Source: Terebella lapidaria (lineage: Eukaryota; Annelida; Polychaeta; Terebellida; Terebellidae). Taken from it: a stretch of DNA of 64,000 bases. The notes beneath the pieces were generated by a model. It had not been told where the DNA came from, did not search any database, and saw only the letters and a program-made list of their open reading frames with translations. This document shows positions 3,444-29,612 of the stretch, piece by piece (position 1 is the stretch's first letter; the number at the start of each line of letters is the position of its first letter). The translations under genes and the position numbers were made by a program. The stretch spans positions 56,006,451 through 56,070,450 of the forward strand of contig OX424556.1 of NCBI GenBank assembly GCA_949152475.1, written 5' to 3'.

Positions 3444-3524
3444 TTGCCAAGTCCTAGCTCTTTGAGCGATTGCTTCATTACTTGGCAAAATAAATTTTGC
3501 CAAGTATGTTGGTCAGTCATCTTG
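3444..3524 (+). repeat. Monomer tag plus class 1 hairpin head
   Basis: The tag is followed by TACTTGGCAAAAT, two A and ATTTTGCCAAGTA, a perfect 13 bp stem, and then ATGTTGGTCAGTC. This head is cut short after CATCTTG, where a second head (the first unit of the 1,271 bp array) begins. That is a nested or abutting arrangement of two heads. Confidence 0.8.
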
Positions 3525-4006
3525 TTACTTGACGAAATGTAAATTTCGTCAAGTATGTTGGTCAGTCGAGTTTGTCTGTCTGTCTGTTTGTTTGTTTGTT
3601 TGTTAGCGCTCTACAGGTCACAATTTTGATCGTAAAGTCCCGAAAATTTGTCAGAAGATGTGCAGTCAGTACTCGACCAAGTGATTAACTTTTATGAGGT
3701 CAAGGTCAAATATTGAGGTCAAGGTCACGCAAAACGATAAAAACACATAAATTGTCATAACTCCAGTTCTATTCGTTATAGAGACTTCAAACCAAGTTCA
3801 TATTGTAGATAAACTCGAGTTCTATCTTTTGTGACCTTGACCTTGGCATTTGACCTTGACCTTGAGAAGTTCGTTATGAGGTGAATGTCAAGGTCAAGTA
3901 CGAAGGTCAGCGCACCATATCGAGTAGTATATTGTTGGAAAGGTCTTGAGCCCCTGATTCCAGTGATATCTCATTTTTGGCGCTGCGACATAAACTGATG
4001 TCACAA

Positions 4007-4014
4007 TGACGTCA
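4007..4014. promoter_or_regulatory. TGACGTCA palindrome (CRE-like), repeated at 5278 and 6549
   Basis: Perfect 8 bp cAMP-response-element-type palindrome in each 1,271 bp unit. A degenerate copy, TGATGTCA, begins exactly 11 bp upstream. Identity to the CREB/ATF consensus is seen directly; binding in this organism is not known. Confidence 0.45.
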
Positions 4015-4128
4015 TAAACGTCAAAAATCCGAAATTTCAAAGTGCCATAACATGGTCAATAGTGTATGGAATCCCTTGAAATTTGATATGCATTTTGACA
4101 GCATTGACCTCTACGAACTGAAGTACAA

Positions 4129-4153
4129 AGGTCAAAGGTCAAGGTCAAGGTCA
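4129..4153 (+). promoter_or_regulatory. Four tandem AGGTCA half-sites (repeated at 5400 and 6671)
   Basis: AGGTCA occurs at 4129, 4136, 4142 and 4148, giving one spacing of 1 bp (DR1) followed by two of 0 bp (DR0). AGGTCA is the nuclear-receptor half-site, and TCAAGGTCA is the extended monomer site used by ERR and FTZ-F1/SF-1 receptors. Inverted pairs of TGACCT lie at 3832-3843 and 3851-3862. The motifs are seen; function is unproven and may be incidental to a repeat family made of such words. Confidence 0.4.
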
Positions 4154-7100
4154 TTGAAATCCCAGAAAAACACGTTTCTTGTAATAACATCCGTTTGAAT
4201 TGTCGTAGGTTCATGGAATTTGAACCATATCATTCAGAAGAGGTATAGCAATCGGACCTATATGTCAATTCCATGATTGACCTCAAACTTTGTCTATAAT
4301 CTGACAAAACTTAATCAGAATCCTATGATAATTCTGGTTTTTACAGATATTTTTTATGTTTTCATGGCTCCAATTTTCACAAATTTACTGAACATTTAAT
4401 TCTAAATCATTTATGCAGTCAGTTGCAGTGTTATTTCTAGTTTATGGTCCACTTTTCACATTTGGAATAAATTGAAAACTCGCCGAGATATCAAAGTAGA
4501 AAGAGAAGTGGGGTGAATCTGATTCTCAATCCGTTCACACACCAATAAGCTGTAGAAACGATTACCCCCTGTGGACATGTCCCCTTCTAAATATACACAC
4601 TCGGTTGAGCAGTAGTACAGTATATCATATATGTATCCAAGTGCACATCTCAAACAACAAAACAATTCTTTTGTTTTCTGACTCAGAGGTGTCAAACTGG
4701 TATAATAAAGCCTAAAACTCATGTCTAAATACAGTCTGGGTCAAGCGACAGGCCACTTTATATCACAACTTTTATTACTTTGATTTTGGCAATTATTACT
4801 TGACGAAATGTAAATTTCGTCAAGTATGTTGGTCAGTCGAGTTTGTCTGTCTGTCTGTTTGTTTGTTTGTTTGTTAGCGCTCTACAGGTCACAATTTTGA
4901 TCGTAAAGTCCCGAAAATTTGTCAGAAGATGTGCAGTCAGTACTCGACCAAGTGATTAACTTTTATGAGGTCAAGGTCAAATATTGAGGTCAAGGTCACG
5001 CAAAACGATAAAAACACATAAATTGTCATAACTCCAGTTCTATTCGTTATAGAGACTTCAAACCAAGTTCATATTGTAGATAAACTCGAGTTCTATCTTT
5101 TGTGACCTTGACCTTGGCATTTGACCTTGACCTTGAGAAGTTCGTTATGAGGTGAATGTCAAGGTCAAGTACGAAGGTCAGCGCACCATATCGAGTAGTA
5201 TATTGTTGGAAAGGTCTTGAGCCCCTGATTCCAGTGATATCTCATTTTTGGCGCTGCGACATAAACTGATGTCACAATGACGTCATAAACGTCAAAAATC
5301 CGAAATTTCAAAGTGCCATAACATGGTCAATAGTGTATGGAATCCCTTGAAATTTGATATGCATTTTGACAGCATTGACCTCTACGAACTGAAGTACAAA
5401 GGTCAAAGGTCAAGGTCAAGGTCATTGAAATCCCAGAAAAACACGTTTCTTGTAATAACATCCGTTTGAATTGTCGTAGGTTCATGGAATTTGAACCATA
5501 TCATTCAGAAGAGGTATAGCAATCGGACCTATATGTCAATTCCATGATTGACCTCAAACTTTGTCTATAATCTGACAAAACTTAATCAGAATCCTATGAT
5601 AATTCTGGTTTTTACAGATATTTTTTATGTTTTCATGGCTCCAATTTTCACAAATTTACTGAACATTTAATTCTAAATCATTTATGCAGTCAGTTGCAGT
5701 GTTATTTCTAGTTTATGGTCCACTTTTCACATTTGGAATAAATTGAAAACTCGCCGAGATATCAAAGTAGAAAGAGAAGTGGGGTGAATCTGATTCTCAA
5801 TCCGTTCACACACCAATAAGCTGTAGAAACGATTACCCCCTGTGGACATGTCCCCTTCTAAATATACACACTCGGTTGAGCAGTAGTACAGTATATCATA
5901 TATGTATCCAAGTGCACATCTCAAACAACAAAACAATTCTTTTGTTTTCTGACTCAGAGGTGTCAAACTGGTATAATAAAGCCTAAAACTCATGTCTAAA
6001 TACAGTCTGGGTCAAGCGACAGGCCACTTTATATCACAACTTTTATTACTTTGATTTTGGCAATTATTACTTGACGAAATGTAAATTTCGTCAAGTATGT
6101 TGGTCAGTCGAGTTTGTCTGTCTGTCTGTTTGTTTGTTTGTTTGTTAGCGCTCTACAGGTCACAATTTTGATCGTAAAGTCCCGAAAATTTGTCAGAAGA
6201 TGTGCAGTCAGTACTCGACCAAGTGATTAACTTTTATGAGGTCAAGGTCAAATATTGAGGTCAAGGTCACGCAAAACGATAAAAACACATAAATTGTCAT
6301 AACTCCAGTTCTATTCGTTATAGAGACTTCAAACCAAGTTCATATTGTAGATAAACTCGAGTTCTATCTTTTGTGACCTTGACCTTGGCATTTGACCTTG
6401 ACCTTGAGAAGTTCGTTATGAGGTGAATGTCAAGGTCAAGTACGAAGGTCAGCGCACCATATCGAGTAGTATATTGTTGGAAAGGTCTTGAGCCCCTGAT
6501 TCCAGTGATATCTCATTTTTGGCGCTGCGACATAAACTGATGTCACAATGACGTCATAAACGTCAAAAATCCGAAATTTCAAAGTGCCATAACATGGTCA
6601 ATAGTGTATGGAATCCCTTGAAATTTGATATGCATTTTGACAGCATTGACCTCTACGAACTGAAGTACAAAGGTCAAAGGTCAAGGTCAAGGTCATTGAA
6701 ATCCCAGAAAAACACGTTTCTTGTAATAACATCCGTTTGAATTGTCGTAGGTTCATGGAATTTGAACCATATCATTCAGAAGAGGTATAGCAATCGGACC
6801 TATATGTCAATTCCATGATTGACCTCAAACTTTGTCTATAATCTGACAAAACTTAATCAGAATCCTATGATAATTCTGGTTTTTACAGATATTTTTTATG
6901 TTTTCATGGCTCCAATTTTCACAAATTTACTGAACATTTAATTCTAAATCATTTATGCAGTCAGTTGCAGTGTTATTTCTAGTTTATGGTCCACTTTTCA
7001 CATTTGGAATAAATTGAAAACTCGCCGAGATATCAAAGTAGAAAGAGAAGTGGGGTGAATCTGATTCTCAATCCGTTCACACACCAATAAGCTGTAGAAA

Positions 7101-7336
7101 CGATTACCCCCTGTGGACATGTCCCCTTCTAAATATACACACTCGGTTGAGCAGTAGTACAGTATATCATATATGTATCCAAGTGCACATCTCAAACAAC
7201 AAAACAATTCTTTTGTTTTCTGACTCAGAGGTGTCAAACTGGTATAATAAAGCCTAAAACTCATGTCTAAATACAGTCTGGGTCAAGCGACAGGCCACTT
7301 TATATCACAACTTTTATTACTTTGATTTTGGCAATT

Positions 7337-7520
7337 ATTACTTGACGAAATGTAAATTTCGTCAAGTATGTTGGTCAGTCGAGTTTGTCTGTCTGTCTGT
7401 TTGTTTGTTACTTGACGAAATGTAAATTTCGTCAAGTATGTTGGTCAGTTGAGTATGTTTGTCTGTTTGTTACTTGGCGAAATCGCTAAAGCGATTTTGC
7501 CAAGTATGTTGGTCACTTGA
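7337..7520 (+). repeat. Three nested hairpin heads
   Basis: Three heads follow one another. Arms are 7339-7351/7356-7368 (GACG type), 7409-7421/7426-7438 (GACG type) and 7471-7487/7490-7506 (TACTTGGCGAAATCGCT, one G-T wobble). Each is followed by CAAGTATGTTGGTCA and a short TTTG/TCTG tract in which the next head begins after TTTGT. This looks like repeated insertion of one head just inside another. Confidence 0.8.
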
Positions 7521-7744
7521 GTGGGTTTGTATGTTTGTTTGTTGGTTTGTTTGCACTCTACAGTCCACAGTCTTCATGCACTTTTTACGAAATCCATAGA
7601 GCATCCTCAAGATCGGAATTCTAGGTCAATGAACTTTTTTCGTGATCCTACATCATTTAGTTTCTGCATAATTAACAAAGTTATTGATTTCGTTCATTCA
7701 AACCCATGTTAACCGAAAACCAAGCTGTAACTTGGTAAATATGT
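7521..7744 (+). repeat. TTTG tract and body remnant before satellite D
   Basis: A short (TTTG)n tract leads into GCACTCTACAG, a motif that also follows the TTTG tract at 11815 and 23615, then about 150 bp of AT-rich sequence without motifs I recognise. It then joins the 267 bp satellite. No gene is visible. Confidence 0.6.
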
Positions 7745-10700
7745 ATCGTAGAGTGAAAAGGACCCCATTTTCGAACTTTGGGCTATAGAGAAGATGATGT
7801 GATGATGGAAACGATGTAATTAGACCAAAGTAGGTCACTGTGACCTAATTTCGGGTCAAAAAATGAACTTTGACCTACTTTTCCAAAAGTGATACCAAGA
7901 CCCTGAGATATGCAAATCTGCAGGAATTTCTGAAATCGGACAATTCTTTGATGAGTTATGGCCTAATTAAGGTGCTAATTGCAGCAACATTCTGTATCTC
8001 GCTTAATATTGGTCGTAGAGCAAAAAGGACCACATTTTTGCACTTTGGGCTATAGAGAAGATGATGTGATGATGGAAACGATGTAATTAGGCCAAAATAG
8101 GTCACTGTGACCTAATTTCGGGTCAAAAAATGAACTTTGACCTACTTTTCCAAAAGTGATGCCAAGACCCCGAGACATTCAAATCTGCAAGAATTTCTGA
8201 AATCGGACAGTTCTTTGATGAGTTATGGCCTAATTAAGGTGCTAATTGCAGCACAAATCTGTATCTCGCTTAATATCGGTCGTAGAGCAAAAAGGACCTC
8301 ATTTTTGGACTTTGGGCTATAAAAAAGATGATGTGATGATGGAAACGATGTAATTAGGTCAAAATAGGTCACTGTGACCTAATTTCGGGTCAAAAAATGA
8401 ACTTTGACCTACTTTTCCAAAAGCGATGCCAAGACCCTGAGATATGCAAATCTGCAGGAATTTCTGAAATCGGACAGTTCTTTGATGAGTTATGGCCTAA
8501 TTAAGGTGCTAATTGCAGCAACATTCTGTATCTCGCTTAATATTGGTCGTAGAGCAAAAAGGACCTCATTTTTGCACTTTGGGCTATAGAGAAGATGATG
8601 TGATGATGGAAACGATGTAATTAGGCCAAAATAGGTCGGTGTGACCTAATTTCGGGTAAAAAAATGAACTTTGACCTACTTTTCCAAAAGTGATGCCAAG
8701 ACCCTGAGACATTCAAATCTGCAAGAATTTCTGAAATCGGACAGTTCTTTGATGAGTTATGGCCTAATTAAGGTGCTAATTGCAGCACAAATCTGTATCT
8801 CGCTTAATATTGGTCGTAGAGCAAAAAGGACCTCATTTTTGGACTTTGGGCTATAAAGAAGATGATGTGATGATGGAAACGATGTAATTAGGTCAAAATA
8901 GGTCACTGTGACCTAATTTCGGGTCAAAAAATGAACTTTGACCTACTTTTCCAGAAGTGTTGCCAAGACCCTGAGACATTCAAATCTGCAAGAATTTCTG
9001 AAATCGGACAGTTCTTTGATGAGTTATGGCTTAATTAAGGTGCTAATTGCAGCACAAATCTGAATCTCCCTTAATATTGGTCGTAGAGAAAAAAGGACCT
9101 CATTTTTGGACTTTGGGCTATAAAGAAGATGATGTGATGATGGAAACGATGTAATTAGGTCAAAATAGGTCACTGTGACCTAATTTCGGGTAAAAAAATG
9201 AACTTTGGGCTACTTTTCCAAAAGTGATGCCAAGACCCTGAGACATGCAAATCTGCAAGAATTTCTGAAATCGGACAGTTCTTTGATGAGTTATGGCCTA
9301 ATTAAGGTGCTAATTGCAGCACAAATCTGTATCTCACTTAATATTGGTCGTAGAGCAAAAAGGACCTCATTTTTGGACTTTGGGCTATAAAGAAGATGAT
9401 GTGATGATGGAAACGATGTAATGAGGCCAAAATAGGTCACTGTGACCTAATTTCGGGTTAAAAAATGAACTTTGGCCTATTTTTCTAAAAGTGATGCCAA
9501 GACCTTGAGACATGCAAATCTGCAAGAGTTTTTGAAATCGGACAGTTCTTTGATGAGCTATGGTCTGATTAAGGTGCTAATTGCAGCACAAATCTGTATC
9601 TTGCTTAATATTGGTCGTATAGCAAGAAGGACCTCATTTTTGGACTTTGGGCTATAAAGAAGATCATGTGATGATGGAAACGATGTAATTAGGCCAAAAT
9701 AGGTCACTGTGACCTAATTTCAAGTAAAAAAATGAACTTTGGCCTACTTTTCCAAAAGTGATGCCAAGACCCTGAGACATGCAAATCTGCAAGAATTTCT
9801 GAAATCGGACTGTTCTTTGATGAGTTATGGCCTAATTAAGGTGCTAATTGCAGCAAAAATCTGTATCTCCCTTAATATTGGTCGTAGAGCAAAAAGGACC
9901 TCATTTTTGGACTTTGGGCTATAAAGAAGATGATGTGATGATGGAAAAGATGTAATTAGGCCAAAATAGGTCACTTTGACCTAACTTCGGGTGAAAAAAT
10001 GAACTTTGGCCTACTTTTCCAAAAGTGATGCCAAAACCCTAAGACATGCAAATCTGCAAGAATTTCTGAAATCGGACAGTTCTTTGATGAGTTATGGCCT
10101 AATTAAGGTGCTAATTGCAGCACAAATCTGTATCTCCCTTAATATTGGTCGTAGAGCAAAAAGGACCTCATTTTTGGACTTTGGGCTATAAAGAAGATGA
10201 TGTGATCATGGAAACGATGTGATTAGGCCAAAATAGGTCCCTGTGACCTAATTTCGGGTTAAAGAATGAACTTTGGCCTACTTTTCTAAAAGTGATGCCA
10301 CGACCCTGAGACATGCAAATCTGCAAGAATTTCTGAAATCGGACAGTTCTTTGATGAGTTATGGCCTAATTAAGGTGCTAATTGCAGCACAAATTCTGTA
10401 TATTGCTTAATATTGGTCGTAGAGCAAAAAGGACCTCATTTTTGGACTTTGGGCTATAAAGAAGATGATGTGATGATGGAAACGATGTAATTAGGCCAAA
10501 ATAGGTCACTGTGACCTAATTTCGGGTGGAAAAATGAACTTTGGCTTACTTTTCTAAAAGTGATGCCAAAACCCTGAGACATGCAAATCTGCAAGAATTT
10601 CTGAAATCGGACAGTTCTTTGATGAGTTATGGCCTAATTAAGGCGCTAATTACAGCACGAATCTGTATCTCGCTTAATATTGGTCTTACAGCAAAATGGA

Positions 10701-11743
10701 CCTCATTTTTGGACTTTGGGCTATAAAGAAGATGATGTGATGATGGAAAGGATGTAATTAGGCCAAAATAGATCACTGTGACCTAATTTCGGGTGAAAAA
10801 ATGAACTTTGGCCTAATTTTCCAAAAGTGATGCTCAATAATGGTCGTAGAGCGAAAAGGACCTCAGTTTCGGACTTTGGGCCATGAAGAAGATGATGTGA
10901 TGATGAAGTCGATGTAATTAGGTCAAAATAGGTCACTGTGACCCAATTTCGGGTCAAAAAATGAACTTGGGCCTACTTTTCCAAAAGTAATGCCAAGGCC
11001 CTAGGACATGCAAATCTGCAAGAATTTCTGAAATCGGACAGTTCTTTGATGAGTTATGGCCTAATTAAGGCGCTAATTGCAGTACAAATCTGTATCTCCC
11101 TTAATATTGGTCGTAGAGCAAAAAGGACCTCATTTTTGGACTTTGGGCTATAAAGAAGATGATGTGATGATGGAAACTATGTAATTAGGTCAAAATAGGT
11201 CACTGTGACCTAATTTCGGGTCAAAAAATGAACTTTGGCCTACTTCTCCAAAAGTGATGCCAAGACCCTGAGACATGCAAATCTGCAAGAATTTCTGAAA
11301 TCGGACAGTTATTTGATGAGTTATGGCCTAATTAATGTGGGATTAATGTGCAGGACAATTCTGTACCTCACATAATATTGGTCACATCGCAAAAAGGACC
11401 TCACTTTCGGACTCTGGGCTATAAAGAAGATGATGTGATGATGAAATCAATGTAATTAGGCCAAAATAGGTCACTATGGCCTTATTCCATGTCAAAATAT
11501 GAACTTTGGCCTACTTTTCCAAAAGTGTTGTCAAAATCATAGGGCACGCGAATTTGCAAGAATTTATGAAATGGCCAATTCTTTTTTGAGTTATAGCCTA
11601 ATTAAGATGCTGATTACAGCACAAATCTATATCTTGCCTATTATTGGTCGTAGAGCAAAAATGAACTCATTTTTGTACTTTGGGCTATGAGGAAGATGGT
11701 GTGATGATGTAACTGACGTAATTGGGACAAAATAGGTCATAAC
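7745..11743 (+). repeat. Satellite D, 267 bp period, about 15 units
   Basis: Tandem monomers with constant landmarks: ACTTTGGGCTATA, GATGATGTGATGATGG, TAGGTCACTGTGACCTA, AATGAACTTTGACCTAC and TTTTCCAAAAGTGATGCC. Spacing is 267 bp, with one shortened unit of 160 bp (10770 to 10930) and increasing divergence after 11.3 kb. The period is divisible by three, so a 61-codon open frame recurs in most units, but each ends in a stop, and the changes I compared alter the amino acids freely. I do not call it a gene. The first four units alternate between two variants. Confidence 0.92.
7832..7846. promoter_or_regulatory. AGGTCACTGTGACCT, estrogen-response-element-like palindrome, once per satellite D unit
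   Basis: AGGTCA, three bases, TGACCT: a perfect inverted repeat with spacer 3, the textbook ERE form. Intact copies start at 7832, 8099, 8366, 8900, 9167, 9434, 9701, 9968 (spacer CTT), about 10503 and 11197. Changed copies are at 8633, 10235, 10770, 10930 and 11467. Whether any receptor binds is unknown. Confidence 0.5.
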
Positions 11744-11940
11744 TTTCCGATATTTCGCCAAGTTCTCGCTCTGTGAGCAATCAAGCGAGTCTTCATTTGT
11801 TTGTTTGTTTGTGTGCACTCTACAGGTCACAATTTTGGTCGTATCGTCATGAAACTTCACCAGAAGGTGGACAATCAATGTCGGACCAAGTGGTAAACTT
11901 TTAGGAGGTCAAGGTCAAAATCTGAGGTCAAGGTCAAGCA
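11744..11940 (+). repeat. Degenerate tag and head leading into satellite E
   Basis: TTTCGCCAAGTTCTCGCTCTGTGAGCAATC is a diverged form of the common monomer tag. It is followed by (TTTG)n, TGTGCACTCTACAGGTCACAATTTTGG and GAAACTTCACCAGAAGG. The same leader, preceded by three hairpins, introduces the second E array at 23.6 kb. Confidence 0.7.
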
Positions 11941-13228
11941 AAAGGTCAAAATCGAAAAATCGCAATAACTTCGCTTCTAATTGAGATTATTTTTTCTGGG
12001 TATTTTTATATTTTTCTATGGCCAATTCTGCATCATCTGATGCATGTCCGATGGTCGTACGACCAAAATTCTCGATTTTCGGTCCAGGTCGAAAATTTGG
12101 GGGTCAAGAATTTAGGTTTTTCCTGTCTCACAATATTCAAAACCATATTATAGAGCCAGGTTCCAATATATGTTGCTGATTTTTACTCAGGATTTGTGCC
12201 TTATCACACAGAACAAGATCCTGAAGTTTCAGAGCTCAGGGTCGAGAATTAGAGTTAAGGTCATAGTAAAGGTCAAAATCGAAAAATCGTGATAACTCTG
12301 CTTCTAATCAAGATTATTTTTTCTGTGTATTTTTATATTTTACTATGGTCAATTCCGCATCAAATGATGCATGTCTGATGGTCGTATGACCTAAACTCTC
12401 GATTTTCGGTCCAGGTCGAAAATTTGGGGGTCATGAACTTAGGTCTTGCTTGTCTCAATTTTCAAAACCCTATTGTAGAGCCAGGTTCCAATATATGTTG
12501 CTGATTTTCACTCAGGAGTTGTGCCATATCACGCAGAACAAGATCCTGAAGTTTCAGAGCTCAGGGTCAAGGATTAGAGTTAAGGTCATAGTAAAGGTCA
12601 AAATCGAAAAATTGAGATAACTTCGCTTCTAATCAAGATTATTTTTTCTGTGTATTTTTATATTTTTCTATGGTCAATTCCGCATCACATGATGCATGTC
12701 TGATGGTCGTATGACCTGAACTCTCGATTTTCGGTCCAGGTCGAAAATTTGGGGGTCATGAACTTAGGTCTTGCTTGTCTCAATTTTCAAAACCCTATTG
12801 TAGAGCCAGCTTCCAATATATGTTTCTGATTTTTACTCAAGAGTTGTGCCATATCACGCAGAACATGACTGTGAAGTTGTAGGGCTCAAGGTCAAGAATT
12901 ACAGTTAAGGTCATAGTAAAGGTCAAAATTGAAAAATCGTGATAACTCCGCTTGTAATCATGATTATTTTTTCTGATTATTTTTGTATTTTTCTATGGTC
13001 AAATCCGCATCATATGATACATGTCCGATGGTCGTATGACCAAAACTCTGGATTTTCGGTCCAGGTCGAAAATTTGGGGGTCATGAATTTAGGTTTTTCC
13101 TGTCTCACAATATACAAAACCACATTATAGAGCCAGGTTCAAATATATATATTGCTGGATTTTACTCAGGAGTTGTGCCTGATCACGCAGAATAAGATTG
13201 TGAAGTTGTAGAACTCAAGGTCACGAGT
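11941..13228 (+). repeat. Satellite E, first array, four units of 325-327 bp
   Basis: Units begin with AAAGGTCAAAATCGAAAAATC at 11941, 12268, 12593 and 12918. Each has the core ATGGTCAATTCCGCATCA, the palindrome family GGTCGTACGACC or GGTCGTATGACC, TTTCGGTCCAGGTCGAAAATTTGG and GGAGTTGTGCC. The core aligns with the class B submonomer (ATGGCCAATTCTGCATC, then CCGACAG), so E and B share ancestry. Confidence 0.88.
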
Positions 13229-14090
13229 TTTCCCGATCGAATTCTGCACGCTGCCAGTCCAATGTACAGCCATGGCATAATTCAGTGTTTATCCTGAGCG
13301 AAGTCTCTCCTACACACTATACTTTACACGTGTTGAGCTTCAATGAACAGAATGGCGCAGTCAGTAGAGGCGTTAGGTTTGTGTGCGAGGGGTAAGTGGT
13401 TCAATTCTCACTGTTGACTGATTTTTTTTTCTTCTAAAATTCAATTCCAAATGACTTTTTCTGTTTCTGAGTGGTCTGGTAAGCATCCCAAACCTGCCAT
13501 GCTTTATGTAATTCTATTGTTTCGAATTATAATGATCACCTTTGAAGGAAAAAAAAACTGTTCCACGAATAGCGATAAACTATTTTATCGGGCTTTCTAG
13601 TGGTATCATCAAAATCTAGTTTGTTCTTTATATTTAAAGTTACAAGCCGCTTTAAATTCAGCATTACGGCCACAACTGTGAATGATCCGTGGTATTAGCT
13701 GCTAACAAATGCATGACAAAAGGCGTGTACCAGATGATATGTCTGCTTCTTATGAATCGCCACATGTCTAAGCCTCTCTATTTGTTTTGTTTACTTGTTG
13801 TCAATGTAATTTCATATTTGTGCGGGAATATTTGCTGTTTGTTATTCGCTTATTTTTAGGCTATCGATATTTGTTTTTGGATTTTTGTAATTTTGATATA
13901 TTTTAGTTTTTTTAGTAGTGGCATCATCAAAACTTTGTGCCGTTAGCATGGTTAGAGGTAATATATTATGTTGATACATACGCAAACTAGATGTTTCAAG
14001 TGGTTCAGTTTCCAATGCTATATGTTGTCAGGGGATGCCATAAATGTGTAAATTATGAGTAAATGTTTTGAATGTAAACAAATGTGTAGA
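13229..14090 (+). repeat. Tail of the E-type element
   Basis: About 860 bp of AT-rich, non-coding sequence after satellite E, repeated at 25.0-26.1 kb with high similarity. It holds a tRNA-like module (13351-13419), a T-run, and a long tail with TTTGTTTTGTTTACTTGTTGTCA, which also resembles the class B tail. Relative to the second copy, about 230 bp are missing near 13753. Confidence 0.7.
13351..13419 (+). repeat. tRNA-like module of a second type
   Basis: AATGGCGCAGTCAGTAGAGGC is an A-box/D-arm-like stretch and GTGGTTCAATTCTC a B box. A run of T follows soon after. It lacks the CTTTGAA anticodon loop of the other modules, so it derives from another tRNA or from a tRNA-derived SINE head. A more canonical copy with GCGGTTCGATTC is at 25152-25220. 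Confidence 0.55.
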
Positions 14091-14626
14091 TTTTTCGTCA
14101 AGTGTTGGCCTATGGCCGATTTTTTGTATGTTTGTCTGTCCGTCAGTTTGCACGATAGCGGCCGCAATCCTGGTCTGAATGACATCAAATTTACACATAA
14201 GATGCGCATAAGACTCCGTCATAAGCCTATTGAATTTGAAGATCATAGCTCAAAAACTGTTGTCTTGGCGACCAAAAAACTGCTACATTGCTTATATCTA
14301 TGGAGGTTGGAAAACCATACAGGAATTGTTACGTGGGATACACCTCCTCCAACTGCCAGCGACGTTAGTGCTGTGCATAGAGCGTATGACTCTCAATCCA
14401 CAGACCCGGGTTCAAGTCTCTCTTGAAACTATTTTTTTTTATTTTTAACTTACAGAATCATGATCTTGCATTTAATTATAAACAACATAACAACACAATT
14501 TAGTAAATGTACAATTTAGTTAACGATAAATAAATAATTGAAAAAAATATATTACAGTATTATGGTGCAGGGGTTTATAGACCAAAGCTAGTTTATGGAC
14601 TTCTCTTCAAGATCTTTAACTTTATT
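14091..14626 (+). repeat. Class A-like monomer with class 2 hairpin head
   Basis: The head CGTCAAGTGTTGGCCTATGGCCGA (14105-14119 forms GGCC-TAT-GGCC) replaces the usual hairpin. It is followed by TGTCTGTCCGTC and an A-like body (CACGATAGCGG, GATGCGCATAAGACTCC), a tRNA-like module at 14364-14423 with B box GGGTTCAAGTC, a long T-run, and a tail with AACATAACAACACAATTTAG. Confidence 0.75.
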
Positions 14627-15213
14627 TTGCCAAGTCCTAGCTCTTTGAGCGATTGCTTCATTACTTGGCAAAATAAATTTTGCCAAGTATGTTGGTCAGT
14701 CATCTTGTTTGTATGTTTGTCTGTCCGTCAGTTTGCACGATAGCGGCCACAATCCTGGTCTGAATGACATCAAATTTACACAGAAGATGCGCATAAGACT
14801 CCATCATAAGCCTATTGAATTTGAAGATCATAGCTCAAAAACTGTTGTCTTGGCGACCAAAAAACTGTTACATTGCTTATATCTATGGATGTTGGAAAAC
14901 CATACAGGAATTGTTACATGGGATACACCTCCTCCAACTACCAGCGACGTTAGTGCTGTGCATAGAGCGTATGACACTCAATCCACAGACCCGGGTTCAA
15001 GTCTCTCTTGAAACTATTTTTTTTTTTATTTTTAACTTACAGAATCATGATCATGCATTTAATTATAAACAACATAACAACACAATTTAGTAAATGTACA
15101 ATTTAGTTAACGACAAATAAATAATTGAAAAAAATATATTACAGTATTATGGTGCAGGGGTTTTTAGACCAAAGCTAGTTTATAGACTTCTCTTCAAGAT
15201 CTTTAATTTCATT
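14627..15213 (+). repeat. Short A-like monomer with class 1 hairpin head
   Basis: Nearly the same body as the preceding monomer (offset 585 bp), but headed by the common tag plus TACTTGGCAAAAT/ATTTTGCCAAGTA. The tRNA-like module is at about 14949-15010. The same body carries two different hairpin heads in adjacent units, so heads are exchangeable. Confidence 0.78.
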
Positions 15214-16267
15214 TTGCCAAGTCCTAGCTCTTTGAGCGATTGCTTCAGTTGTATGTTGCTCAGCGATCAAATATGTGTTCTGTCCGTCTGTTCGCACGAC
15301 AGCGGGCGCAATCCTTATCGGAATGACATGAAATTTTCAAAGAAGATGCGCATAAGACTCCTGCACAAGCCTATTGATTTTGAAGGTCATAGCTTAAAAA
15401 CTGTTGTCTTGGCGACTGAAAAACCGTTACATAACTATAACTATGGAGGCTGGAAAACCGTAAAGTAACTGTTACATGGAATACACTTCTTCACACTGTC
15501 GGCAACGTTGGTGCAGTGGATAGAGCGTAAGACTTTGAATCCAAAGACCCGTGTTCAACCCTCCCTCAAAACTCTAATCTCTTTTATCTCTAACTTAGTT
15601 TTTATACAGTCAGTTGCAGTGTTATTTCTAGTTTATAATGCACCTTTTACATTTGGAATAGATTGAAAACTCGCCGAGTAATCAAAGTAGAAAGAGCAGT
15701 GGGGTGAATCTGATTCTCAATCCGTTCACACGCCAATAAGCTGTAGAAACGATTACCCCCTGTGGACATGTCCCGTCCTAAATACACACGCTCGGTTGCA
15801 TAGCAATACAGTATATCATATATGTATCCAGATGCAGATCTCAAACAACATTTCAGTGGTTTTCTAACCCAGTGATGTACAAGTGATATAACAAAGCCTA
15901 AAACTCTAGTCTAAATACAGTCTGTGTCAAGCGACAGGCTCCCTTATCTTAGGACTGCTTGGGTGACGAACCGGCAAAGGAACCGGCCCCATTCCCGGTT
16001 TTTAGCAGTAATTTGCCATAGAGGAACTGTCACAATACAACACAACTTGACGCTGTCGGCCACTTTGGTGCTGTGCGTAGAGCTCAGGACTTTGAATCCA
16101 CAGACCCGGGGTCAAATCTCTCTTGAAATTATTTTATTTTTATTTTCAACTTACACAATCATGATCATGAATTTCGTTCTAAACAACATAACAACACAAT
16201 TTAATAACTGTATCAAGCTAGTGTAAAAGCTAGTGTATAGACTTCTTTTCCAGTTCATTACTTTATT
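15214..16267 (+). repeat. Class A monomer (1,054 bp)
   Basis: Complete A unit with tRNA-like modules at about 15507-15565 and 16064-16123. Its end has the TTACACAATCATGATCATG tail variant, different from the ACAGGATCATGTC tail of the A monomer at 925. Confidence 0.85.
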
Positions 16268-17152
16268 TTGCCAAGTCCTAGCTCTCTGAGCGATTGCTTC
16301 AGTTGTATGTTGCTCAGCGATCAAATATGTGTTCTGTCCGTCTGTTCGCACGATTGCGGGCGCAATACTTGTCGGAATGACATGAAATTTTCACAGAAGA
16401 TGCGCATATGACTCCTGCACAAGCCTATTGATTTTGAAGGTCATAGCCTAAAAACTGTTGTCTTGGCGACTGAAAAACCGTTACATAACTATAACTATGG
16501 AGGTTTTTATTTTCAACTTACACAATCATGATCATGAATTTCGTTCTAAACAACATAACAACACAATTTAATAACTGTATCAAGCTAGTGTAAAAGCTAG
16601 TGTATAGACTTCTTTTCCAGTTCATTACTTTATTTTGCCAAGTCCTAGCTCTCTGAGCGATTGCTTCAGTTGTATGTTGCTCAGCGATCAAATATGTGTT
16701 CTGTCCGTCTGTTCGCACGATAGCGGGCGCAATCCTTGTCGGAATGACATGAAATTTTCAAAGAAGATGCGCATAAGACTCCTGCACAAGCCTATTGATT
16801 TTGAAAGTCATAGCTTAAAAACTGATGTCTTGGCGACTGAAAAACCGTTACATAACTATAACTGTAGAGGCTGGAAAACCATAAAGTAACTGTTACATGG
16901 AATACACTTCTTCACACTGTCGGCGACGTTGGTGCTGTGGATAGAGCGTAAGACTTTGGATCCAAAGACCCGTGTTCAATCCTCCCTCAAAACTCTAATC
17001 TCTTTTATCTGTACCTTAGTTTTCATACAGTCAGTTGCAGTGTTATTTCTAGTTTATAATGCATCTTTTACATTTGGAATAGATTGAAAACTCTCTCAAA
17101 GCGTTTTTTAGCTGGTTTATTATAGACTTCTTTTCAAGTTCATTACTTTATT
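16268..17152 (+). repeat. Two truncated class A monomers (367 and 518 bp)
   Basis: The 16268 unit breaks after AACTATGGAGG and joins back to TTTTTATTTTCAACTTAC, so about 367 bp is duplicated in tandem (16137-16503 and 16504-16870). The next unit, from 16635, is a short A form of 518 bp that jumps from GATTGAAAACTC to TCTCAAAGCG, losing the central and second tRNA-like parts. The 518 bp form recurs at 22865, 37459, 52323 and 56804. Confidence 0.8.
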
Positions 17153-18931
17153 TTGCCAAGTCCTAGCTCTTTGAGCGATTGCTTCATTACTTGGCAAAAT
17201 AAATTTTGCCAAGTATGTTGGTCAGTCATCTTGTTTGTTTGTTTGTATGTTTGTCTGTCCGTCAGTTTGCACGATAGCGGGCGCAATTCTTATCGGATTT
17301 TCATGAAATTTTGACACAACATGTGCAAGTATCTTCCTCATAAGCCTTTCGTTTCTGAAGGTCAAAGGTCAAAAATTGACGCCAAGGTCGTTCAAAAACC
17401 ATAATATTAAAAATCGTAATAACTCCAGTTATATTTCATCTGGAGTTTCGAGATTTCTTGCATCGATTACTATGGCCAATTCTGCATCTTTTGATGTATG
17501 GCCGACAGCTGTTGCATCAAAATTGACGATTTTGACTCCAGGTTAAAAAGACGAGGGTCAGGAGTTTCTCTATCAAAAGTTTCATGCATTGCTGTGCAGT
17601 CAATTCTTTTCGGATTCTTATGAAATTTTCACAGCATATGCACACCAAATGTCGGCATATTCCTGTTGTTTCTCAAGGTCAAAGGTCAAGAATTACCGCC
17701 AAGGTCATTGAAAAACCAAAAAATTAAAAATCGTCATAACTCCACTTTCATTCCACCTGCACTTCCAAAATTGTCCACCTATTTTACTATGGCCAATTCT
17801 GCATATTTTGATGTATGTCCGACAGTGATTGAATCAAAATTGACGAATCAAACTCCAGGTGAAATACATGGGGGTCAGGAATTTCGGATCCAAAGTTTAA
17901 CACATTGCTGTGCAGTCAATTCTTGTGTGATTTTGACGAGATTCTCACAGAATATGTGCACAAAACATCCGCATAACCCTGTTGATTTGGAACATCATAG
18001 CTCTAAAACTGTTGTCATTGTAACGGAAAAATCGTTACTTGACAAATCACATGAAAACCGTGATAGCATTGCTATACGAAATACACCACCTCACATTGCC
18101 TGCGACATAGAGCTTAGGACTTTAAATCCACAGACCCGTGTTCGAGTCTCTCTTGAAACTATTTTTTTTTATCGCTTGCTTACACGATCAAGTATTTAAT
18201 TCCAAATAACAAAACAACGCATTCATAATGTAGGTATTCAGCAAATAAATGTACCAGGAGTAATTTTCATAGTTTTCATGTCATCATACTTAACTATTTG
18301 TCGCTAAAAATATCACTTAACAGTGTTTCATTGGTTCCATCATGATCGTGTCTTTTATGCATCATAGCGCATCCGTGTTAGCTCCATTCTATCAATAATA
18401 CATACATCATTATATCGTTCCATCTCGGTTGCGTAGTAATACAGTATATCATAAAAGTATCCAAATGCAGATCTCAAACAACATTTCTTTTGTTTTCTGA
18501 CTCAGAGGTGTACAAGTGATACAACGAAGCCTAAAACTCTTGTCTAAATACAATCTGTGGAAAGCGACAGGCTCTTTTATATCAGAACTATCCTGGGTGA
18601 CGAAACGGCGTAGAGATCAGCCCAATTCCCGGTTTTTAGCAGTAATTTGCCTTCAAGAACCTGTTACAATACAACACAACTTGATACTGTCGGCAACGTT
18701 GGTGCAGTGGATAGAGCGTAAGACTTTGAATCCAAAGACCCGGGTTCAACTCTCTCTCAGAACTTGTTTTTTCTCTCTAACTTACAGGATCATGTCTTTT
18801 ATAGCATAACTGCACAATTACAACTTACTTCAAAGCAACTAGATAATTTAAAACAAGAACTATTCAAGTCTCTCTCAGAACGTTTTTTTTAGCTAGTTTA
18901 TAGACCTCTCTTCAAGATCATTAACTTTATT
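17153..18931 (+). repeat. Class B monomer with A-type tail
   Basis: Tag, class 1 hairpin, TTTG/TCTG/TCCG tract, AGGTCA-bearing submonomers, and a shortened tRNA-like module (about 18102-18163, TTAGGACTTTAAATCC, B box GTGTTCGAGTC). The tail then joins an A-type end at about 18420 with another tRNA-like module at 18698-18757. Open frames here are the repeat read through. Confidence 0.78.
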
Positions 18932-19986
18932 TTGCCAAGTCCTAGCTCTTTGAGCGATTGCTTCAGTTGTATGTTGCTCAGCGATCAAATATGTGTTCTG
19001 TCTGTCTGTTCGCACGATAGCGGGCGCAATCCTTGTCGGAATGACATGAAATTTTCACAGAAGATGCGCATAAGACTCCTGCACAAGCCTATTGATTTTG
19101 AAGGTCATAGCTTAAAAACTGTTGTCTTGGCGACTGAAAAACCGTTACATAACTATAACTATGGAGGCTGGAAAACCATAAAGTAACTGTTACATGGAAT
19201 ACACTTCTTCACACTGTCGGCAACGTTGGTGCAGTGGATAGAGCATAAGACTTTGAATCCAAAGACCCGTGTTCAACCCTCCCTCAAAACTCTAATCTGT
19301 TTTAACTCTAATTTACTTTTTATACAGTCGGTTGAAGTATTATTTCTAGTTTATAATGCACCTTTTACATTTGGAATAGATTGAAAACTCGCCGAGATAT
19401 CAAAGTAGAAACAGCAGTGGGGTGAATCTGATTCTCAATCCGTTCACACGCCAATAAGCTGTAGAAGCGATTACCCCCTGTGAACATGTCCCGTCCTAAA
19501 TAAACACGCTCGGTTGCATAGCAATACAGTATATCATATATGTATCCAGATGCAGATCTCAAACAACATTTCAGTGGTTTTCTAACTCAGTGATGTACAA
19601 GTGATATAACAAAGCCTAAAACTCTAGTCTAAATACAGTCTGTGTCAAGCGACAGGCTCCCTTATATTAGGACTGCTGGGGGCGACGAACCGGCAAAGGA
19701 ACCGGCCCCATTCCCGGTTTTTAGCAGTAATTTGCCATAGAGGAACTGTCACAATACAACACAACTTGATGCTGTCGGCCACTTTGGTGCTGTGCGTAGA
19801 GCTCAGGACTTTGAATCCACAGACCCGGGTTCAAATCTCTCTTGAAATTATCTTATTTTTATTTTCAACTTACACAATCATGATCATGAATTTCGTTCTA
19901 AACAACATAACAACACAATTTAATAACTGTATCAAGCTAGTGTAAAAGCTAGTGTATAGACTTCTTTTCCAGTTCATTACTTTATT
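18932..19986 (+). repeat. Class A monomer (1,055 bp)
   Basis: Typical A unit with tRNA-like modules at 19224-19283 and 19783-19843 and the ATCATGATCATG tail. Confidence 0.85.
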
Positions 19987-20536
19987 TTGCCAAGTCCTAG
20001 CTCTCTGAGCGATTGCTTCAGTTGTATGTTGCTCAGCGAACAAATATGTGTTCTGTCCGTCTGTTCGCACGATAGCGGGCGCAATCCTTGTCGGAATGAC
20101 ATGAAATTTTCAAAGAAGATGCGCATAAGACTGCTGCACAAGCCTATTGATTTTGAAGGTCATAGCTTAAAAACTGTTGTCTTGGCGACTGAAAAACCGT
20201 TACATAACTATAACTATGGAGGCTGGAAAACCATAAAGTAACTGTTACATGGAATACACTTCTTCACACTGTCGGCAACGTTGGTGCAGTGGATAGAGCG
20301 TAAGACTTTGAATCCAAAGACCCGTGTTCAACCCTCCCTCAAAACTCTAATCTCTTTTATCTCTAACTTAGTTTTTATACAGTCACTTGCAGTGTTATTT
20401 CTAGTTTATAATGCACCTTTTACATTTGGAATAGATTGAAAACTCGCCGAGATATCAAAGTAGAAAGAGCAGTGGGGTGAATCTGATTCTCAATCCGTTC
20501 ACACGCCAATAAGCTGTAGAAACGATTACCCCCTGT

Positions 20537-21004
20537 GGCTACTGTATATTAATTATATTGGCCATTCAACTCAATGTTAAATGATCTTACTTTGACGGTC
20601 CATAACACCTTCCTAAAAAAAAATCCCAGCCTAACCACTATGCTAGTTTTATCCCTCAACGTATTGGGCATCGCGTGGTGAGCATGAATATATTTGACGA
20701 CACATGGGATTTTTCGCTATTCTGCCTTGAATGGACCCGGGGTGAAAATACCCCAAATTATGGGTGCTGATGCTCATGCAAAACCCCTTTGATTCCCCAG
20801 CTCCTGAGAAGAACGCCAACAAGATACTGCCTTGAAAACCGGGTCATTATATCCCAGCACAGCGTTCTTTCAGGTGAATATACACTCGTCCAGAAGTCTG
20901 GCCTAAAAAATATATGAGGCGATGTTTAACAACAGTTTCCCTTTAAATTGCCTAAGTGAGGTGAACGCTCGCTGATTGGCTGAGGGAATTACTGTACACT
21001 GCCC
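20537..21004 (+). mobile_element. 468 bp TIR unit, left copy
   Basis: MITE-like non-coding unit with imperfect 18 bp inverted ends. The right subterminal stretch GCTCGCTGATTGGCTGAGGG gives CCAATCAGCGAGC on the other strand. It differs from the right copy at about 20681 (G for A) and in GGGTGCTGATG versus GGGTACTGATG. Its right side abuts TTAA, its left side CTGT. Confidence 0.65.
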
Positions 21005-21857
21005 TTAATATATAGGCGTTTCTGAGATATATGAATTATATTTTGTCAGTAGGTAGTCTTATATGTATGTAATTGTGAAACGAAATATAAACCTGATATC
21101 CCGATTCAATTCTCTGTTTCAGTCCATTTAATACATATGCTACATGTGCTGGGATTTGCCAGTCTGCCAAATTCTTAGAATTGAAATTGTTGAAAACTCA
21201 TTGAGTTTTCATGCAAAAGCCTTGAAAATTTCAGGATGAGTATAGAATATAAGTGCAATTAGCATCTAGACCCAATCGTTGGTATAATTCAATGGCAGTT
21301 TGGATTATTTAGTAAAGTAAGATTAAAGAAAACCGTGAATTTATCACACTAAAAACGGAAAATTATCTATAGAACCCATGTGAAACGTAACAAACCACTA
21401 ATAATTTATTTGGAAAGGCAAGAATATCAAGGGGTTATTATTTGCATGCAACGTTGTGTCTCTAGAATGATGTCAGGGTCAGGGGGGCTGCTTATGATAA
21501 GCGTGAGCTCGGCATAGGGCCGACCTCAATTCTTGTGATCTGGTCCGGTGGTCAAAATTTCCTAGTCCCTGACACCTGTAGAAGGCTGAGCTATTGAAAT
21601 GCATCAGTATCATTAATATTGTGCAAACAAATTGTAATTCAAGTCATAATTTAGCCGCTGAGGATAGTTAGAACATTTTTGTATGCCGACCGACCATGTG
21701 ATTTATGTGTATTCCACAATTTTCTCCTTAACCACACAAAACACGGCAAATGAACATTGAATTAGGTCGGGAACCTTCAACTGTTACCTAGTCAAACAAA
21801 TTATGACATTTTTTGCGCTCCCAGGCCACGCAGAGTGAAAATTGTGTAATCAGTTAA
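21005..21857. other. 853 bp middle segment of the composite element
   Basis: AT-rich segment bounded by TTAA at both ends. I see no open frame of note, no tRNA-like module and no AGGTCA clusters, so its make-up differs from the surrounding satellites and it probably came from elsewhere. It is present only in the five composite copies in this window. Confidence 0.6.
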
Positions 21858-22325
21858 GGCTACTGTATATTAATTATATTGGCCATTCAACTCAATGTTA
21901 AATGATCTTACTTTGACGGTCCATAACACCTTCCTAAAAAAAAATCCCAGCCTAACCACTATGCTAGTTTTATCCCTCAACGTATTGGGCATCGCGTGGT
22001 AAGCATGAATATATTTGACGACACATGGGATTTTTCGCTATTCTGCCTTGAATGGACCCGGGGTGAAAATACCCCAAATTATGGGTACTGATGCTCATGC
22101 AAAACCCCTTTGATTCCCCAGCTCCTGAGAAGAACGCCAACAAGATACTGCCTTGAAAACCGGGTCATTATATCCCAGCACAGCGTTCTTTCAGGTGAAT
22201 ATACACTCGTCCAGAAGTCTGGCCTAAAAAATATATGAGGCGATGTTTAACAACAGTTTCCCTTTAAATTGCCTAAGTGAGGTGAACGCTCGCTGATTGG
22301 CTGAGGGAATTACTGTACACTGCCC
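21858..22325 (+). mobile_element. 468 bp TIR unit, right copy
   Basis: Same unit in the same orientation as the left copy, preceded by TTAA and followed by CTGTGGACATG, which continues the interrupted class A monomer. Confidence 0.65.
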
Positions 22326-22864
22326 CTGTGGACATGTCCCGTCCTAAATACACACGCTCGGTTGCATAGCAATACAGTATATCATATATGTATCCAGATG
22401 CACATCTCAAACAACATTTCAGTGGTTTTCTAACTCAGTGATGTACAAGTGATATAACAAAGCCTAAAACTCTAGTCTAAATACAGTCTGTGTCAAACGA
22501 CAGGCCACTTTATATCAGAACTATTGGGGGTGATGAACCGGCGGAGGAAACCGGCCCCCTTCCCGGTTTTTAGCAGTAATTTGCCATAGAGGAACTGTTA
22601 CAATACAACACAACTTGATGCTGTCGGCCACTTTGGTGCAGTGGGTAGAGCTCAGGACTCTGAATCCACAGACCCCGGGTTCAACTCTCTCTCAAAACTT
22701 GTTTTTTCTCTCTAACTTACAGGATCATGTCTTTTATAGCATAACTGCACAATTTAATACATGTACAACTTACTTAACAGCAACTAGAAAACACTATTCA
22801 AGTCTCTCTCAGAACGTTTTTAGCTGGTTTATTATAGACTTCTTTTCAAGTTCATTACTTTATT

Positions 22865-23382
22865 TTGCCAAGTCCTAGCTCTTTGAGCGATTGCTTCAGT
22901 TGTATGTTGCTCAGCGATCAAATATGTGTTCTGTCCGTCTGTTCGCACGATAGCGGGCGCAATCCTTGTCGGAATGACATGAAATTTTCAAAGAAGATGC
23001 GCATAAGACTCCTGCACAAGCCTATTGATTTTGAAAGTCATAGCTTAAAAACTGATGTCTTGGCGACTGAAAAACCGTTACATAACTATAACTGTAGAGG
23101 CTGGAAAACCATAAAGTAACTGTTACATGGAATACACTTCTTCACACTGTCGGCGACGTTGGTGCTGTGGATAGAGCGTAAGACTTTGGATCCAAAGACC
23201 CGTGTTCAATCCTCCCTCAAAACTCTAATCTCTTTTATCTGTACCTTAGTTTTCATACAGTCAGTTGCAGTGTTATTTCTAGTTTATAATGCATCTTTTA
23301 CATTTGGAAAAGATTGAAAACTCTCTCAAAGCGTTTTTTAGCTGGTTTATTATAGACTTCTTTTCAAGTTCATTACTTTATT
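22865..23382 (+). repeat. Short class A monomer (518 bp form)
   Basis: Tag to GATTGAAAACTC, then a jump to TCTCAAAGCG. It carries only the first tRNA-like module (about 23158-23217). Diagnostic changes such as GTAGAGGCTGG are shared with the units at 16635, 37459, 52323 and 56804. Confidence 0.82.
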
Positions 23383-23743
23383 TTGCCAAGTCCTAGCTCT
23401 TTGAGCGATTGCTTCATTACTTGGCAAAATAAATTTTGCCAAGTATGTTGGTCAGTCATCTTGTTTGTTTGTTTGTTACTTGCCGGAATCTTCGATTTCG
23501 GCAAGTATGTTGGTCGGTTGGTTTGTTTATGTGTTTGTTACTTGACGAAATTAAATTTCGTCAAGTATGTTGGTCAGTTGAGTTTGTCTGTTTGTCTGTT
23601 TGTTTGTTTGTTTGTGTGCACTCTACAGGTCACAATTTTGGTCGTATCGTCATGAAACTTCACCAGAAGGTGGACAATCAATTTCGTACCAAGTGGTAAA
23701 CTTTAAGAAGGTCAAGGTCAAAAATGGAGGTCAAGGTCATAGA
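23383..23743 (+). repeat. Tag plus three different nested hairpin heads, leader of satellite E
   Basis: Hairpins at 23418-23430/23433-23445 (TTGGCAAAAT), 23477-23490/23494-23507 (TTGCCGGAATC, one G-T wobble) and 23539-23551/23555-23567 (TTGACGAAAT). Each is followed by CAAGTATGTTGGTC and a TTTG/TCTG tract, the next starting after TTTGT. The last tract runs into TGTGCACTCTACAGGTCACAATTTTGG and the E array. Confidence 0.82.
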
Positions 23744-28202: not shown

Positions 28203-29612
28203 ATTTTGGTTCCGGCAAGTGTGTGCCCTATGGGCTCTCGTTTGTATGTTTGTCTGTCCGTCCGTTCGCACGATAGCGGGCGCAATTCTTGTCAGATTTT
28301 CATGAAATTTTGACACAACATGTGCAAGGATCTTCCGCGTAAGCCTTTCGTTTCTGAAGGTCAAAGGTCAAAAATTGACGTCAAGGTCGTTCAAAATCCA
28401 AAAAATTTAAAATCGTAATAAGTCCAGTTATATTTTATCTGGAGTTTCGGGATTTCTAGCATCGAATACTATGGCCAATTCTGCATCTTTTGATGTATGG
28501 CCGACAGCTGTTGAATCAAAATTGACGATTTTGACTCCAGGTTAAAAAGACGGGGGTCAGGAGTTTCTGGATCAAAAGTTTCATGCATTGCTGTGCAGTC
28601 AATTTTTGTCGGATTCTTATGAAATTTTGACAGCATATGCACACAATATAACGGCATATTCCTGTCGTTTCTCAAGGTCAAAGGTCAAGAATTAACGACA
28701 AGGTCGTTGAAAACCCAAAAAATTAAAAATGGTCATAACTCCACTTTCATTCCACCTGCACTCCCAAAAGTGTCCACGTCTTTTATTATGGCCAATTCTG
28801 CATCTTTTGATGTATGACCGACAGCGGTTGAATCAAAATTGATGATTTAAACTCCAGGTGAAATACATGGGGGTCAGGAATTTCGGATCCAAAGTTTAAC
28901 ACATTGCTGTGCAGTCGATTCTTGTGTGATTTTGACGAAATTCTCACATAATATGTGCACGGAATGTCCGCATAACCCTTTTGATCTGGAACATCATAGC
29001 TCTGAAACTGTTGTCACGGCAACAGAAAATCGTTACTGAAAAGCATTACATGAAAACGATAATAGCATTGCTATATGAAACACTCCGCTTCACATCGCCA
29101 GCCACGTTAGTGCTGAGCGTAGAGCGTAGGACTTTGAATCCACAGACCCGGGTTCAATACTATCTCAAAACTATTTTTTTTCTCCAATAAAAGATCATGT
29201 ATTCAATTCCAAACAACGAAACAACACATTCGTAGTGTACAAAATCAGCAAATAAACGTAGCACGAGTAATCTTTATCGTTATTATGTCATCATACTTAA
29301 TTATTTCTCACTATGAATTCCTTAAAGTCATTTAACAGTGTCTCATTGGTTCCATTATGATCGTGTCCTTCATGCATCATAATGCATCTGTGTTAAGTCC
29401 ATTCTGGCATGATTTGTATTCACCGAGTGTCTCTATTCGTTTTGTTCACTTGTTGTCATTGTAATTTTTCATCTGTAACTTACAAGATCATGATCATGCT
29501 TTCAATTCTGAAGAATGTAGCAGCACAATTTAATATCATTACAGTATTATGATGCAGGGGTTTATAGACCAAAGCTGGTTTATAGACTTCTCTTCAAGTT
29601 CATTACTTTATT
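28203..29612 (+). repeat. Class B monomer with a third head variant
   Basis: The head CGGCAAGTGTGTGCCCTATGGGC carries the hairpin GCCC-TAT-GGGC (28225-28235), a base-pair-swapped form of GGCC-TAT-GGCC. Then come TGTCTGTCCGTCCG, three submonomers of about 317 bp, a tRNA-like module at about 29106-29166 (B box GGGTTCAATAC) with a T-run, and the ATCATGATCATG tail. Confidence 0.82.

Follow-up and report, generated by a model that had tools for sequence, protein, structure and literature searches.

A short hairpin recurs in a 64,000-nucleotide stretch of the genome of the terebellid annelid Terebella lapidaria (contig OX424556.1; C2:56006451-56070450, hereafter the window, in a genome of 762 Mb), and its arms keep pairing while their letters change from copy to copy. 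What these hairpins, here called heads, belong to and what keeps them paired is the question raised by this locus. A preliminary description, made from the letters of the window, had listed seven heads and taken three different pairs at one stem position as covariation, implying that either selection or the copying mechanism maintains the fold. Very probably, the heads mark the 5' ends of non-autonomous Helentrons, or HINEs, which are rolling-circle transposons of the Helitron2 type; the elements would have inserted after TT, often in one another, and their covarying arms would be kept by selection on the source elements. In what follows, L and R denote the left and right arms, both within the head, and R' a third arm in the tail.

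Heads in the window and the nature of the elements

A search with the exact pattern TACTTG..CAAGTATGTTGG found 18 heads in the window, all on the + strand (Table 1), including the seven already listed, each within one base. They comprise 10 GGCA, 6 GACG, 1 GGCG and 1 CCGG heads and are four stem families, not 18 independent cases. When up to two mismatches were allowed in CAAGTATGTTGG, the window again gave 18 matches, every one exact, against a mean of 7.3 and a maximum of 14 in 100 shuffles. Stem position 7 is A-T, G-C or C-G among these heads, just as had been described, and the pair types are real; they belong, however, to different element families and are not changes at one locus. Position 9 is likewise G-C, A-T or G.T, with the G.T lying in head 7471, which had not been listed; in head 23477 a G.T falls at position 10. 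Of the flanks that had been called constant, GTATGTTGGTC is so, but the base after it varies (A in 17 of the 18 heads, G at 23477). Folding of four heads (seven strands) as single-stranded DNA gave z scores of -6.2 to -8.7, with none of 200 shuffles equally stable for any of them, stems of 12–16 pairs and loops of 3–4 nucleotides. The heads bearing G.T fold better as the + strand (7471, -15.2 against -12.9 kcal/mol; 23477, -11.4 against -9.7 kcal/mol). Microsatellite tracts of TTTG/TCTG stand directly behind the heads.

The complete layout of a HINE was found, that is, TT, the L + R hairpin, a microsatellite and, kilobases away, R' just ahead of a 3' palindrome. TT precedes all 77 distinct heads in the sequence examined, the second T being built into most of the retrieval patterns. 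Helitron_like_N gave at least 150 scored matches genome-wide, and a single open frame, 2261 aa long, encodes the domains OTU, Helitron_like_N and PIF1 together with Exo_endo_phos at the C terminus; judged by these domain matches, it has the Helentron-type make-up and is present in the same genome as the heads. In two of the three RepHel copies whose flanks were read, heads stand at the 3' side of the gene and point back toward it, the far end not having been reached; the gene runs the opposite way to the heads, as is on record for some Helitron2 elements. A canonical Helitron (Helitron1, with 5' TC, 3' CTRR, insertion between A and T and no 5' hairpin) does not agree with the TT target and the 5' hairpin, and the idea that the heads are canonical Helitron 3' hairpins was rejected since head, tail and TT fit a Helentron 5' end. 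A link to viral contigs was rejected as well, CAAGTATGTTGGTCAGT occurring in four stretches and the palindrome in none.

At C1:41180369-41201687, where only the head region was read, a CCGG head and a CCGG tail lie about 21 kb apart with a RepHel match on the opposite strand, and this is possibly one autonomous element. RepHel frames cluster at C6:36.42-36.61 Mb and C14:31.4-32.7 Mb, several of them exceeding 2000 aa without stops.

Pairing within the head and with the tail

The same exact pattern returned 4239 heads genome-wide. With the remaining outer stem positions and the TATGTTGG flank fixed, and with copies within one family not independent of each other, position 7 is C-G in 1637 heads, G-C in 1393, A-T in 1029, G.T in 160, A.C in 4 and, by subtraction, some other combination in 16, that is, Watson-Crick in 4059 of the 4239, while position 3 is C-G in 4239, G-C (the flipped outer pair) in 1267, C.C in 17 and G.G in 1. 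GGCC copies, located on C4 and C5, make up 13 of the 17 C.C patterns; the one at C1:42549243 is no head, and that at C8:10417653 is really a G-C head whose match began at an upstream TACTTG. At C4:42.53-42.56 Mb, GGCC heads stand about 2.5 kb apart, many with an adjacent second head having C.C at position 3. Such a genome-wide collection had been proposed in the preliminary description, and mismatched stems proved not to be as common as matched ones (18 mismatched at position 3); the covariation claimed there holds in these counts, holds at the level of families, and extends to a third arm that had not been seen.

When each stem type seen at least twice is counted once, 12 types remain (CCGG-T coming from a single tandem cluster), in which 99.3% of cells are paired, G.T being taken as a pair, and two-sided changes occur at five positions (3, 7, 9, 10 and 12). 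The L-R covariation score is 0.345 against 0.113 after shuffling, a value reached by none of 500 shuffles, and is at most 0.101 with the partners slid by 1–3 columns; the covariation test itself carries the warning that relatedness alone, without structure, can lift sequences above such shuffles. A looser count over the examined loci, in which 37 of the 115 rows fell short of 10 pairs out of 12, mixes real heads with chance matches and was not used. A long array of 908-bp units at C3:24.93-24.98 Mb (L080) has a head with A.A at position 7.

In every wobble among the stem types the G lies on L and the T on R, at position 7 in GGCC, at 9 in GACGb, GGCG-w and CCGG-T, and at 10 in CCGG and CCAG; those of GGCC, GACGb, GGCG-w, CCGG and CCAG are family-wide. 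This orientation hints at a strand effect, and L, having two partners, may be constrained for that reason; the hint is suggestive only, and the A.C copies present in one C3 array weigh against it. At the level of copies, no strand bias by mismatch type was found at position 7, where 98 of the 100 listed G.T heads (of 160) belong to a single family, so that the listed heads contain 2 separate G.T cases to set against 4 A.C.

Many heads are preceded by a tail that consists of ATTTTGCCAAGT followed by CCTAGCTCTTTGAGCGATTGCTTCA with the palindrome GCTC-TTT-GAGC. There are 35 such tails in the window, the GGCA-type tail pattern occurs at 2384 places genome-wide at up to three mismatches, and ahead of its palindrome stand the same letters as in the right arm of the GGCA head. 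Both head and tail were assigned in eight families (GGCA, GACG, CCGG, CCAG, GGCC, GGCG-w, GTTG and GGCG-b), some of which rest on one or two elements only. Over positions 2–12, L matches R' perfectly in seven of the eight and with one mismatch in the eighth; the families' own L-R' pairings thus total one mismatch, other pairings average 2.3 each, and only 2 of 40320 reassignments are as good. The L-R' covariation score is 0.383 against 0.101 after shuffling (0/500). In the GTTG family, the flipped pair 3 and the T-A pair 12 are found alike in L, R and R'. L covaries with the distant R' as well as with R.

The clearest case is position 9 in CCGG/CCAG, where tails with T go with CCAG heads in all seven cases in the sequence examined and tails with C go with CCGG heads in three of four (Fisher 0.024). 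With eight cases on C1 known by coordinates only, in which the tail was assigned to the closest head on its strand no more than 4 kb away, the latter becomes 11 of 12 and Fisher 1.6e-4; at 31453453, the CCGG head has a CCAG head immediately outside it. These tails occur at 196 places, of which 100 were listed (26 T, 74 C) and 12 T and 8 C stretches were taken, picked by hand off C1; the set omits 6 T and 6 C stretches without an upstream head in reach and the C-form tails in L076 and L077, and in L051 neither head nor tail was seen. The association is one of copies, reflecting few ancestral changes.

Nests and arrays

Tandem heads look like nested insertions. In nest B, heads of the types GGCA, CCGG and GACG are followed by GACG, CCGG and GGCA tails, making three nested brackets, and in nest A the three tails close a GGCG head, a GACG head and, by type, the outermost GGCA head, the remaining GACG heads having been left open by a 1271-bp tandem duplication. 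Together with a third nest (C1:33429001-33459000), these were scored by assigning to each tail the most recent open head. The type of the tail is that of the nearest open head in 13 of 16 cases (nest A 2/3, nest B 3/3, C1 8/10), against a mean of 5.4 after shuffling (p 5e-5), the C1 nest alone giving p 0.00025. Three tails fail to match: that of the GGCA type in nest A, which lies behind the duplicated GACG heads, and those of two GGCG-b elements, whose arm is one letter off and which were scored as non-matching; in the C1 nest, the head-like row 21726 and the tail-like row 24508 were omitted as chance, and the minus-strand rows are head arms read backwards. The inner heads of nests A and B follow TT within, or at the start of, the outer head's microsatellite, and several heads of the C1 nest stand directly behind a tail. 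Self-insertion, together with insertion end to end, thus accounts for the rows of heads, in keeping with a proposal made for Fusarium.

Much of the window is repeated in other ways. The four GACG heads at window 3522-7409 are exactly 1271 bp apart in units 99.9% identical, and no tail was found between them. Nest A elements enclose about 11.6 copies of a 267-bp repeat (window 7746-10833), and an 11.2-kb duplication of 98.8% identity links window 33465-44631 with 52810-64000. At 24 of 35 GGCA-type tail junctions (window 929 to 61677) there is no head, and the tail abuts AGTTGTAT(G/T)TTGCTCAGCG, which resembles the head flank minus the palindrome, so that most array units would have lost the head. 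An array of about 2.1-kb units at C1:45.80-45.83 Mb (L050) has a CCGG right arm one base short and the head directly behind a GGCA tail.

Table 1. Heads and tails located in the window (positions count from the first letter of the window; for tails, the position by which the tail is cited is given in brackets).
Feature	Position	Strand	Method	Remark
GGCA head (L + loop + R), outermost of nest A	3479..3506	+	pattern search	
GACG head, first of four at 1271-bp spacing (3526, 4797, 6068, 7339)	3526..3555	+		
GACG head	7409..7438	+		closed by tail at 14099
GGCG-w head, G.T at position 9	7471..7506	+	pattern + fold	closed by tail at 11759
Tail, R' ..TTTCGCCAAGT, palindrome GCTC-TGT-GAGC	11752..11778 (11759)	+		pairs fully with L of head 7471
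Tail, GACG family, R' ..TTTCGTCAAGT, palindrome GGCC-TAT-GGCC	14092..14117 (14099)	+		closes 7409
Tail, GGCA family, R' ATTTTGCCAAGT, palindrome GCTC-TTT-GAGC	14624..14650 (14631)	+		closes nest A by type (3479)
GGCA head	14662..14689	+	pattern + fold	
GGCA head	17188..17215	+		
GGCA head, outermost of nest B	23418..23445	+		
CCGG head, G.T at position 10, second of nest B	23477..23507	+	pattern + fold	
GACG head, innermost of nest B	23539..23567	+		
Tail, GACG type, R' TTTCGTCAAGT	26126..26151 (26133)	+		closes 23539
Tail, CCGG type, R' TTCCGGCAAGT, palindrome GCCC-TAT-GGGC	28209..28235 (28216)	+		closes 23477
Tail, GGCA type	29610..29636 (29617)	+		closes 23418
GGCA head	29648..29675	+		further GGCA heads start at 40890, 43448, 47906, 60235 and 62793

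Selection, copying and comparison with known elements

The preliminary description had left selection and the copying mechanism side by side. A copying mechanism that derives one arm from the other, by hairpin template switching or by repair of L-R or L-R' heteroduplexes, would need no selection, and it agrees with the perfect L-R' match in seven of eight families and with the several pairs that differ on both sides at once. It is nevertheless improbable, because whole families carry G.T wobbles and one carries A.A, which the rebuilding of arm from arm in each round would erase: L-R wobbles are fixed in CCGG, CCAG, GGCC and GGCG-w, A.A in GTTG-A, and an L-R' G.A in GGCG-b. In addition, all three states of position 9 coexist, as CCGG/..CGG (G-C), CCGG/..TGG (G.T, L049) and CCAG/..TGG (A-T), and so do GGCG/CGCC, GGCG/TGCC (window 7471, L031) and GGCA/TGCC. 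Single copies sometimes show one-sided changes. Selection on source elements, which we infer from these states, fits better, and the simplest reading is that the fold is kept by selection among elements still moving, not copy by copy.

Alternatively, the heads might matter only in tandem arrays, as their inverted repeats, with unequal exchange and duplication spreading them and a few accidental founders accounting for the pair types. The window is indeed largely tandem or duplicated and its copies are near-identical, but single heads after TT also occur outside arrays, five positions have changed on both sides across stem families with the distant arm following, and the headless junctions mean that arrays do not need the head; this explanation is very improbable. 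That the stable stem-loop works as RNA (a structured transcript, a terminator or a source of small RNA) is hardly credible, Rfam having given no match at the gathering threshold in the window and R' lying kilobases off at the other terminus with a second palindrome next to it, a placement in keeping with recognition of DNA ends.

For the preferred reading, HINE termini kept by selection, the following course may be proposed. On this reading L is the 5' terminal inverted repeat, which R folds into the 5' hairpin, and R' is the 3' inverted repeat just before the palindrome. A source element would move only while L can pair with both R and R', and a change in one arm would spread once it is tolerated, as G.T, or answered in the other arms. 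At the end of rolling-circle replication, R' would take L from R and so mark the end point, along the lines suggested in the portions of PMC3627910 covered here. Predicted DNA duplexes of L:R' are stronger than those of L:R by 3.1 to 3.5 kcal/mol in CCGG, CCAG, GGCC and GGCG-w, equal in GGCA, GACG and GTTG, and weaker in GGCG-b; four families against one is not significant, and the stronger L:R' duplexes are what displacement of R by R' would be predicted to favour. It is conceivable, though rather unlikely, that the three arms act together as a strand-exchange switch carrying an address, in which R, with its G.T wobbles, holds L in a weaker hairpin until the better-matched R' displaces it, so that copying stops at the tail of the element itself instead of at that of a nested stranger.

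Several observations weigh against reading the heads as HINE termini kept by selection. Related families are not independent, and the independent changes are few, six to eight as judged by eye. The five two-sided L-R pairs were matched by 8 of 500 shuffles, and the seven further pair types of L-R' were equalled by 47 of 500. The GTTG-A type carries A.A between L and R at position 7 in many copies, and no tail was found in the one 908-bp unit read of its array on C3. GGCG-b, seen twice, has the L-R' G.A at position 7, and the CCAG element L048:1931-4009 has a C9 tail (A.C). Taken alone, nests A (p 0.22) and B (p 0.17) are not significant, and the C1 array mentioned above joins CCGG heads with GGCA tails.

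The comparison with known systems draws on parts of the papers cited. Helitron2 elements (PMC3627910, 2013) have a 5' asymmetrical terminal inverted repeat (ATIR) 0–2 bp from the 5' end, which forms a hairpin with the next bases, a 3' ATIR immediately ahead of a 3' hairpin, a RepHel that in some elements is reversed, and compensatory changes in two related elements, Helitron-1N1_CQu and -1N2_CQu. All of this is common to the elements described here, and the layout, together with compensatory change in one element pair, was already published there; in contrast to what those parts of the paper describe, one genome here holds at least eight stem families in thousands of copies, with wobble intermediates and exceptions, and the gene carries an endonuclease domain as well. 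The present work adds the scale, the three-arm test, the wobble intermediates and the exceptions. Helentrons, HINEs and DINE-1 (PMC4067079, 2014) share a 5' subterminal inverted repeat (subTIR) with an adjacent inverted repeat (IR), a microsatellite, a 3' subTIR with a palindrome, the TT target, and a RepHel with a C-terminal endonuclease that is reversed in one element; as far as the account covered goes, the count of three-arm covariation is made only here, and no such count was found in a literature search of openly licensed papers. Cg_HINE of the Pacific oyster (PMC7492417, 2020) likewise has the subTIR, the IR, mostly four-letter microsatellites, central tandem repeats and a 3' subTIR with a palindrome; in the text covered it could not be tied to an autonomous partner, whereas here heads border RepHel in two of the three copies. 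For DINE-1 in 12 Drosophila genomes (PMC2374699, 2008), inverted repeats and a 3' stem-loop were described as kept despite sequence change, with compensatory mutations suggested for the 3' stem; the structure is kept in both cases, the change being between species there and within one genome here. FoHeli of Fusarium oxysporum (PMC5148889, 2016) shares self-insertion and several 5' termini with one 3' terminus; unlike in the sections on FoHeli covered, nested heads and tails can here be matched by stem type.

Arms that change and yet pair suggest that the pairing, not the letters, is what is kept. In the literature covered, taken in part, how Helentron ends are recognized and how copying stops is only a suggestion. 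Given thousands of heads, wobble intermediates, three arms that covary and eight or more stem families sharing one genome, the two-element suggestion of 2013 becomes countable and testable, and the matching of heads to tails by their stems offers a simple way to parse nested Helentrons. If the address switch were true, the covariation of the stems would be a divergence of addresses among families living inside each other.

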